DNA of 64,000 bases from the NCBI GenBank assembly GCA_964036295.1, contig OZ038462.1, forward strand, positions 29,077,759-29,141,758, written 5' to 3'. Position 1 is the stretch's first letter, and each line of letters starts with the position of its first letter. The notes below the pieces were generated by a model. That model had not been told where the DNA came from, did no database searches, and saw nothing but the letters and a program-made list of their open reading frames with translations. A program made the position numbers and the translations under genes. The DNA is from Plumapathes pennacea (lineage: Eukaryota > Cnidaria > Anthozoa > Antipatharia > Myriopathidae). Positions 3,098-6,000 of this stretch are shown here, piece after piece.

Positions 3098-6000
3098 TCA
3101 GGACATATTAGCGTACACAGCTTCACCGGGCTTCTCTGGGGCTGATGGTTTGTTCAGTGAACCCGCCTGCACAGTGCCGACCACATCGGCGTACACAGTC
3201 GGTGTGTACGGAGCAGGTTTTTCCGGTTCTGCGCTGCCTGTGTCGTTGTCGAGATCCCCAAGTTCCGCGTAACACAACTCTTCCTTGTTCTCTCTTTTCT
3301 GTTAAAAGACAACACAACTGGAGTCATGTGGTCTCTTGCCCTTTCAGCTGATGAAGCTGATGATTGTTACGTTGCTGACCGTCAGTTTGTACTGCACGCG
3401 CTGTTTGAAAAGTATTCATGAAATCCACCGTGTCCTTTCTGACTTTTCATCTTTCTGAAAGTACGCTCTATTTTTGGAATTCAATGAGTTGCAATGATTC
3501 TTTCTGCATGGTTGTAGCTCAGATGGAAGTTCTCGAAACTTTCTTCGTGTACAAAGGACTCCACTTTGGTTTGGTAACTGAGCCGTGGTGTTATTTTTAA
3601 AATTAAAAGTGTATCAGCAGTCAAAAGGGACAAATTTTAAGCCGCAAAGTAGGATTTAATTCTCCACCGGTTGGTTGGTATCAAACTAAAGAATACATGT
3701 GATGAAATAAATGTTTTCTGGAAAAAAAGTTTGAAAGTAAACCACGTGCAAGTATTAGCTATGATAAAAACTTACAACACAAAAAAATTTTGGTAAGCGT
3801 TTTTAATATTTTAGGAATACACACAGACATGTATTATGTGACGTAACATGTGTAAGTTCACTAAACGTATATACTGGGAGGCATGTTAGAAACAAACAAG
3901 TAAAGAAATACATAAACTGAGGCAGGCAGGCAGACGACAAGCAGTCATTTGTTACCTTTTTCTTGGTCTTATCGACCGTTGCATAAGGGTCGTTTCTCTC
4001 GCTTATTTCCGCGTATGTCTGAGCCTCTTCTTCCTCTTTGGGGGTCCCAAGAAGCTTTGCGGCCTCTTGCTTAACGTTGTCGTATGGATTGTCCGAGTCA
4101 CTTTGCTGTTCATTACTACAACGTCAAATAAACGGGGCCGGAATTATTGAGATAAAACTGGTAGTCTTAAACTGCAGAGGCCAAGACACTTACAGCTTTG
4201 GTTTCTGTTCTGCGGCATCTGCAGGAAAAAAAAAACAGATCGTCCGTGAGAACGTGCTTTACAGCTAAGAACCGGCGCCAGGTAAATATGGCTAAAGAAA
4301 ACGCGACTGTCAATTTGTGGGGATTCCCATTCGAGAGTATCACACACTGTCACTACATTTCGGGTTCAAAGCAGTATTAGAACCGCATATACCAAGCTAC
4401 TTATCAAGGCTTTCTTAAAAGTCACTCGTAAGCCTCAACGATGAATCTCTCAGTTTGCTTCGCGATACGGCCGGGAATATTGCTTTTAAATGAGTAGCCT
4501 ACTTTTGAAGTAAATGTAGCCGCCATGTGTGATCAGTTCTGATACTTTGTGCACATTACAGCATGAGCGTTACTTGGTCTCTCTTTTTGTTTAACATTAG
4601 CAACAGGTCTGCAGTAGCAGATTACCGGCTGTAAACCCGGCTTAAAATAAACTAGTGTTACAATGGAATGCTAGTACTTGTGGGAACTAGTTTTAGACTG
4701 CGTCGGCGTGGATATAAAAAATGCAATCAAGTAAAAGTTGCTGTGTGTGAGAAAGTTGAGTGCCGTTAAAGAAGTTTGTAAGTGTATTTTAGGTAATATG
4801 TCGTGCTAACAGTAGTAAACCTTACCTTTATTCGTCCGGCTTTTTCGTGACCTGCGAAATCGTTTCAACAAAATAATTCCCAGCACAACAGTAACAAAGA
4901 CAAAGAGAACACCCAGGACTACAACCAAGATCAACACGACGGATGACTTCTTGCTGCTGGTTTCAGGTTGGGAACTGGGTTCCACAGGGGATGGAGTGGT
5001 CGAACCTGGTCAAAAAAGAAAGGGCTGCTTCAGCTGCTAGATAAATCAATTGATGCGAGTTGAGAAGTGGACTGTGTATATGTTATATACTGTAGATAAG
5101 TTTATTTGTAATGTAAACGTTGTTAAGGTTACGGGCGATAAGTCTGCGTAAAACAAAGAGAAAGGACTTTTTCATAAAGTTGTTTCATATATTATGAGCT
5201 ATTTTGTACAGGGCAGATAGCTACCCCTAAACCACTGTACCTCAAATGCAACTGATAAAACCTAATTTGCCTCTCTTTACCCTTATGCTAATGAACAGCA
5301 CTATTTGATTTCGGTCGTTACCTCCGAAAGTTAGAACTGACTGGTGTTTTCAGTTTTATTTTGGCTTGATATAGAGGCACGCAGCCCTGTATTCTTATTA
5401 GCAAATGTGGTCCAAACTTACAAAGAAACTCTGCAGTTTCCTTGTTTAGGTGCAGGGGCACTTTGGCCACATTTGCAAAAATAAAGAGATGCTCATGCAG
5501 GTTTTCTGCAAACAAAATTTGTTTCAGCTTGATTACTATTTATTGTCGTTTTGTGTTGCCCCCATATTCTGAAACTTGACAACTTTTGTCGTCGCCTGTG
5601 GTTTTAATTTCCGACACGCCAACTATTTTTCCTTTAAGCATAAAATATTTTTATGTTTCTATGGCGGGTTATAGAGCAACCTTACTGTCTCCCTTTGGAC
5701 TGGATGAGGTCATCTTCGTCTCTGGCGGACTGGATGACGTCACGTATGTTGTCGTGGGAAGACTGGGATGAGTCCAGCAGGTACTCGAACAGTTAGAAGA
5801 ATCAACTAAATTGGAAAAAGAAAACAATCCAGTGAAAATAGCTGTAAACATGAGACAGCAACTACAACAACGATCTTTTAACTGACTATTATGGCAGCGT
5901 GATCTTAATGCATAATAATATCGCATTAAAATCCTTCGTGGTTACTGCAGTGCTCGATTTGTACCCAACGGGCAGTACAAACAATTACATAGACTGATAT

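Follow-up and report, generated by a model that had tools for sequence, protein, structure and literature searches.

Vertebrate lectin-type paired receptors are encoded by clustered genes and have type II topology. Paired receptors are defined by near-identical ectodomains with different signalling ends (PMC3533184). Like the locus reported here, Ly49, NKR-P1, CD94/NKG2 and the Dectin-2 cluster have C-type lectin domains (CTLDs), near-identical ectodomains and different signalling ends, with an ITIM on one member (PMC3533184). Our locus is a tandem group of receptor genes in the window, by which we mean the whole stretch of 64,000 nucleotides of Plumapathes pennacea DNA that was analysed, and its cytoplasmic ends are of two kinds, here called tail A and tail B. 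The CTLDs of the vertebrate NK complex (group V) are type II, whereas the coral receptors are type I, with the lectin domain before the membrane span. Unlike the vertebrate lectin pairs, the coral receptors lack a charged residue in the membrane span with which to bind an adaptor, and tail B has an ITAM-like motif of its own.

In their tails, PD-1, BTLA, Siglec and SLAM-family receptors carry an ITIM and then, about 25 residues on, an ITSM or ITIM-like motif, as in tail A; the spacing in PD-1 is 25, and the SLAM motif reads TIYAQV. The ectodomain of these receptors is Ig, whereas that of the coral proteins is a CTLD, and the coral tail adds a YxN and a dileucine signal. The likeness seen is one of motif.

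Several invertebrate systems are also close. The oyster proteins CgCLec-TM1 and CgCLec-HTM are transmembrane C-type lectins with hemITAM-type motifs and with Syk and ERK downstream. They resemble the coral proteins in being transmembrane lectin receptors of an invertebrate whose tails hold tyrosine motifs; they differ in being molluscan, activating and of hemITAM or non-classical ITAM type, and the relevant passages of their source mention neither ITIM-ITSM, nor pairing, nor tail exchange (PMC13027682). The allorecognition candidates of Hydractinia carry ITIM and ITAM, and genes for the signalling molecules that go with these motifs are present in its genome (PMC12065747). These Alr proteins are like ours in being cnidarian and clustered, with ITIM and ITAM tails (PMC12065747, PMC11999971), but they have Ig-like domains and no CTLD, come from a hydrozoan and have a role in allorecognition. 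The fester co-receptors (FcoR) of Botryllus are type I, and their choice of ITIM or hemITAM differs between alleles and is exchanged by splicing (PMC12065747); unlike the coral proteins, they are tunicate receptors with Ig and sushi domains.

In a coral genome study, 81 lectin orthogroups with 2,475 genes were counted in 14 cnidarians, and its main text is without mention of ITIM (PMC10236652). According to a 2026 review, the signalling steps behind cnidarian lectins are largely uncharacterised (PMC13027682). An initial reading of the window from its letters (the sequence-only reading) knew of no described cnidarian CTLD family with a tail of this kind, and the literature agrees as far as the matches listed from open PMC titles and abstracts go. 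No cnidarian CTLD with an ITIM/ITSM tail was found in the open PMC literature listed, and the passages nearest to the subject in the reviews closest in terms (PMC9505182, PMC5877582, PMC13027682) describe no such family.

We propose that one gene of the window, G2, belongs to a tandem cluster whose C-type-lectin-like receptors, all of type I, work as an inhibitory/activating paired-receptor system, a reading that we hold to be slightly on the probable side. The exons of G2 are as follows.

G2 exon 1, 11439..11511, minus strand: start codon and a signal peptide (judged by eye) of 24 residues; donor GTAAGT, phase 1
G2 exon 2, 10142..10534, minus strand: C-type lectin-like domain
G2 exon 3, 5686..5805, minus strand: stalk rich in Ser/Thr, holding two cysteines; splice acceptor TTTAG and donor GTAAGG, phase 1
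G2 exon 4, 4826..5005, minus strand: membrane-proximal stalk and transmembrane segment, its core without a charged residue
G2 exon 5, 4194..4218, minus strand: 25-nt microexon, GT-AG in G2, G5 and G6
G2 exon 6, 3956..4115, minus strand: tail A part 1, with NPYDNV, the acidic dileucine EAAKLL, TYAEI and PYATV
G2 exon 7, 3098..3298, minus strand: tail A part 2, with the ITIM LCYAEL, APY, the ITSM TVYADV, VYANM and the stop

The four exons that the sequence-only reading had joined (3098-3298, 3956-4115, 4194-4218 and 4826-5005) do fit together on the minus strand, with GT-AG at every junction and a single open frame whose only stop is its last codon; the other two frames have several stops each. 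Adding the upstream exons 11511-11439, 10534-10142 and 5805-5686 gives a full reading frame of 383 amino acids in seven exons, ordered as signal peptide, CTLD, stalk, membrane span and a tail roughly 140 residues long, an order that makes the protein type I. The microexon is needed, since the frame shifts if it is skipped, and both it and its junctions are seen again in two more window copies, G5 and G6. Every motif that had been claimed (NPYDNV, TYAEI, PYATV, LCYAEL, TVYADV and VYANM) lies where it had been placed, and the observation of the G2 tail is confirmed. DUF6570 often accompanies Helitron-type elements, and a match to it (E 2.1e-10) occupies a minus-strand frame at 7973-8515, within the lectin-stalk intron of G2.

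A search with the spliced G2 protein returned 8 relatives. A profile search, in which the 7,995 candidates with the most words in common were scored, returned at least 30 proteins among these. Nine of those 30 have tail A and six a tail-B-like end (P0015 is counted here despite its missing first YxxL); the remaining 15, which did not enter the tail counts, are fragments, proteins with truncated or other tails, one layilin-named protein and one cochlin-like protein. The tail-A relatives include four from Pocillopora verrucosa and one each from Porites lutea, Stylophora pistillata and Oculina patagonica, and all nine are 32-38% identical to G2. Full-length relatives with the domain order of G2 exist, and those named are from stony corals. 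Most of the relatives were predicted by automatic annotation of tandem arrays, in which mis-joins are possible; P0001 (399 aa) is most likely a spliced cDNA, because its contig of 1,247 nt is too short for introns like those of the window.

Two Pfam families were considered for the tail and rejected. SCIMP (27.3 bits, cut-off 27) and SIT (25.5 bits, under its cut-off of 27.6) both match the membrane segment together with an acidic low-complexity stretch, and neither was found at E 0.001 in any of nine relatives scanned (five with tail A and four with tail B).

How much of tail A could arise by chance depends on which feature is considered. When the tail is shuffled 20,000 times, a lone ITIM occurs at a frequency of 0.126, an ITSM at 0.025, YxxM at 0.049, a loose ITAM at 0.010 and an acidic dileucine at 0.080; an ITIM followed 20-32 residues on by an ITSM occurs at 0.0003. 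Single motifs are weak evidence, their order and spacing are better, and conservation is the real test. Tyrosine is the most conserved residue of tail A (mean 0.84, the next residue 0.59), and six of its seven tyrosines are at least 80% conserved, against 31 of all 142 positions (hypergeometric p 4e-4, on rows that are not independent, since a single species supplies four of the nine relatives as paralogues). An ITIM (LCYAEL, LVYAQL and similar) stands at the conserved site in 3/3 window copies and 8/9 relatives, the exception being P0003, with P at -2. The ITSM reads T[VI]YADV in all 12 tail-A copies, three from the window and nine from relatives, always with T at -2. It follows the ITIM at a tyrosine spacing of 26 residues in ten copies and 28 in the other two. 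The last tyrosine has N at +2 (YxN) in 12/12 copies and M at +3 in the window copies only.

These counts uphold the claim of a CTLD receptor family whose tail runs from ITIM to ITSM, and the protein searches, a check that had been suggested for cnidarian proteomes, yielded nine relatives that keep the last YxN and the ITIM-ITSM core, the ITIM being at its place in eight. Other parts of the sequence-only reading did not survive. Its ITAM and PI3K components fail because neither the ITAM-like pair nor YxxM is a family feature: the strict form YxxL/I-x6-8-YxxL/I is present in 0/12 tail-A copies, the V-allowed form YAEI-x6-YATV is confined to G2 and G6 (two of three window copies, G5 having CAEI) and absent from all nine relatives, and YxxM is likewise in none of the nine, where the last tyrosine keeps YxN instead. 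It had also suggested a switchable or inhibitory receptor, and no one tail was seen to switch; an opposing signal, if there is any, would more plausibly lie on sister genes with tail B.

The same tyrosines could serve uptake. As an endocytic or phagocytic lectin receptor, G2 would use YxxPhi signals for AP-2 together with EAAKLL to drive the uptake of microbes or symbionts, and inhibitory signalling would be absent; we regard this as possible, if on the unlikely side. All tail-A motifs (YDNV, YAEI, YATV, YAEL, YADV and YANM) do fit YxxPhi in its familiar form, and the acidic dileucine [DE]xxxL[LI], to which the sequence-only reading had not pointed, is kept in 3/3 window copies and 8/9 relatives, yet 8% of shuffles have it as well. 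YxxPhi demands neither the T at -2 of YADV, nor the N at +2 of the last tyrosine, nor the spacing of 26 or 28, all of which are kept in 12/12 copies. Endocytic and signalling roles may also go together.

G2 has a number of neighbours. All receptor units found are on the minus strand, each ordered as signal peptide, CTLD and tail, and leftward they run G9, G8, G7 (broken), G6, G5, G4, G3 (broken), G2 and G1.

G1, 251..2279, minus strand: signal peptide and CTLD exons; the tail is past the window edge
G3, 14772-13625, minus strand: diverged lectin unit with stops, its end resembling tail B (about 33% identity)
G4 (tail B), 21935..27027, minus strand: signal peptide 27027-26958, CTLD 25345-24956, stalk 22917-22783
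G4 exon 22380-21935, minus strand: membrane span and tail B in one exon, with YQAL-x11-YASL, PYENV and DYENM
G5 (tail A), 27818..33173, minus strand: signal peptide 33173-33104, CTLD 31521-31174, membrane span 29706-29530
G5 tail exons, minus strand: microexon 28943-28919, tail 28840-28681 and 28012-27818; YAEI changed to CAEI
G6 (tail A), 33889..41026, minus strand: signal peptide 41026-40954, CTLD 40158-39757, stalk 38499-38377, membrane span 37813-37637
G6 tail exons, minus strand: microexon 35871-35847, tail 35770-35611 and 34083-33889
G7, 45807-42623, minus strand: diverged lectin unit with stops, its end resembling tail B (about 33% identity)
G8 (chimera), 47718..51536, minus strand: signal peptide 51536-51464, CTLD 50682-50281, stalk 49258-49136
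G8 3' exons, minus strand: tail-A-type membrane span 48477-48301, tail B 47980-47718, open in frame
G9, 60591-60184, minus strand: lectin exon with an in-frame stop

Five copies have open reading frames (G2, G4, G5, G6 and G8), and G9 is a probable pseudogene. Broken G7 keeps YQAL-x11-YTSL, and both it and G3 end in YVN. In G8 the stalk and membrane exon are of A type and the cytoplasmic part is B: the match to the tail-A intron ends near 47,984 and the stretch homologous to the B exon begins at 47,978, and a putative join at a cryptic AG, a weak acceptor, keeps the frame. G8, a B copy, looks recombinant.

The array is built by large tandem segmental duplications, which pair 1-5258 with 24747-29990 (87% identical), 23851-27615 with 30089-33793 (92%) and 39478-42113 with 50005-52640 (94%). 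Between G3 and G4 there is a frame of 1,753 codons (15229-20487) flanked by 245-bp direct repeats with 100% identity to each other (14943-15187 and 20537-20781), and 14943-20781 is, by its appearance, a recent LTR-element insertion. The lectin domain of G5 (31521-31174, minus strand) lacks 14 residues of a late loop in frame, and G5 yielded no stalk exon. An altered ligand site in G5 is possible.

Tail B is treated here solely as a motif class. The pattern YxxL-x9-16-YxSL, defined post hoc on sequences already inspected, is present in three of the four window copies and five of the six relatives, against 1 in 1,800 shuffles of the relatives' tails. The spacer is 11 in G4, G8 and G7 and 11-15 in the five pattern-bearing relatives; a spacer of 11 fits the wide form of the ITAM (6-12, found in 0.5% of shuffles), and the whole range of 11-15 falls outside the strict 6-8. 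A later YxN is also common to the window and the relatives. Homology between the two sets of tails was tested in three ways, none of them supportive. The window tail B scored 4.2 bits against that of the relatives, where shuffles reached 14.6, no tail-B relative exceeded 2.1 bits in the reverse search, where shuffles reached 10.8, and the hhalign probability was 1.7%. What the tails have in common is the motif order only, and they may be convergent or diverged too far. We set aside a hypergeometric p for tail B, because the alignment behind it is unsupported. A search with the tail-B gene gave only two matches, both in the lectin domain. From its motifs, we infer that tail B would be activating.

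A further possibility is that both tails activate. SHP2 can act as a positive effector, and a receptor for activation or adhesion could use YxN with Grb2, and SHP2, as positive inputs to Ras-MAPK, so that tails A and B would both be activating. The last-tyrosine YxN, kept in 12/12 copies, is in keeping with this idea, but the contrast between the two tails is left without explanation by it, and the ITIM-ITSM arrangement is typical of vertebrate inhibitory receptors. We consider two activating tails quite unlikely, even with the precedent of oyster C-type lectin receptors with tyrosine motifs that activate ERK (PMC13027682).

The case for paired receptors is clearest in the ectodomains. Pairs within the window were drawn independently of annotation, each tail being assigned to the nearest upstream lectin exon. 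The lectin domains of G5 (tail A) and G4 (tail B) are 89.7% identical over 116 residues, and those of G6 (A) and G8 (B) 85.8% over 134 residues. The same is seen in Oculina patagonica, where ACROYT_G020126 (A; P0010) and ACROYT_G020127 (B-like; P0016) have lectin domains that are 88.5% identical; their consecutive locus tags and equal-sized contigs make them probable neighbours. Clustered genes, highly similar ectodomains and different signalling ends are thus all present.

A tree of 22 lectin domains, from 16 of the 30 proteins found (P0025 being included as an outsider) and six window copies, was labelled A where YADV is present and B for all others. On this tree the tail type must change 6 times, with at least 5 of the changes forced by starred branches, a count of 6 that 239 of 500 label shuffles also show or undercut. 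The G6/G8 and Oculina pairs are starred branches; the G4/G5 pair is unstarred (83/79). A single tail-A clade was rejected (p-AU 3.2e-6), and again in three more tests, under a simpler model and with the partial P0013 and the long-branched P0009 left out. The log-likelihood gaps in these tests were 310-440 and the constrained trees may be suboptimal, so we use the direction of the result and not the exact p. In G2 and G5 the lectin domains differ by a dS of 0.94 and the cytoplasmic exons by 0.025. Together with the tree, this contrast indicates that ectodomains and tails have separate histories, through repeated tail exchange or repeated ectodomain homogenisation. A lectin dN/dS above 1 for G4/G5 (6.2) was set aside, as almost no synonymous changes lie behind it.

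Recombination of this kind could also be neutral. Were the genes decaying tandem duplicates, with tails shuffled by chance and no functional pairing, one might expect the three broken units with stops (G3, G7 and G9), the loss of one tyrosine and 14 lectin-domain residues in G5, and the cytoplasmic dN/dS of 0.80 for G2/G5; the ratio is 0.17 for G2/G6 and 0.35 for G5/G6, all three values being based on few changes. Against decay, tyrosines are better kept than other residues at an overall identity of about 36%, five copies are open (G2, G4, G5, G6 and G8) and an A/B ectodomain pair occurs again in Oculina. We find decay highly improbable.

What the receptors bind may not be sugar. Pfam Lectin_C (PF00059) matches the G1 copy at E 2.2e-14. 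The best of five AlphaFold2 models of the CTLD has a pLDDT of 79.6 and a pTM of 0.72, three others being at about 45-51, and the PDB matches listed for the model are all C-type-lectin-like proteins. The predicted fold is that of an ordinary CTLD, with no closest subfamily assigned by the fold search. In seven aligned proteins, compared by eye with no canonical lectin among them, the EPN/QPD site reads KPD, NPD, SPD or EPS and the WND site LNN, FNS, FST or FDA. Both calcium motifs seem altered, which makes classical calcium-dependent sugar binding doubtful, and a protein ligand is possible.

We return to the paired-receptor system as the preferred reading, using the generally known consensus forms and binding partners of ITIM/ITSM, YxN and ITAM. 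Binding of ligand would cluster the receptors, and Src-family kinases would phosphorylate tail A. The ITIM and ITSM would then dock both SH2 domains of a SHP2-like phosphatase and so dampen signalling; the YxN of tail A would engage Grb2-like adaptors, and the acidic dileucine signal would lead to internalisation. Tail B would recruit a Syk-like tandem-SH2 kinase and activate, and recombination would keep supplying either output to one recognition domain. The direction of signalling, the partners and the ligand of the cluster are all putative. A bolder and rather unlikely extension is that the cluster is a coral recognition complex, for allorecognition or for the acceptance of symbionts and microbes, whose lectin receptors are continually re-fitted with inhibitory (ITIM-ITSM) or activating (ITAM-like) tails, and which would be an independently evolved equivalent, outside bilaterians, of the NK lectin complex of vertebrates.

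To our knowledge, little has been learned of the receptors with which corals distinguish self, symbiont and pathogen. We have not found a paired-receptor layout described for coral lectins, and the cnidarian cases that we found described, the Alr proteins of Hydractinia, are Ig-like and not lectins. For the locus presented here the anatomical case is strong, and its function is what we infer from sequence. If the reading is true, clustered lectins with opposed-looking and repeatedly exchanged tails would be concrete, testable candidates for recognition receptors in corals, and the inhibitory/activating paired-receptor design would exist outside bilaterians, on a lectin scaffold.
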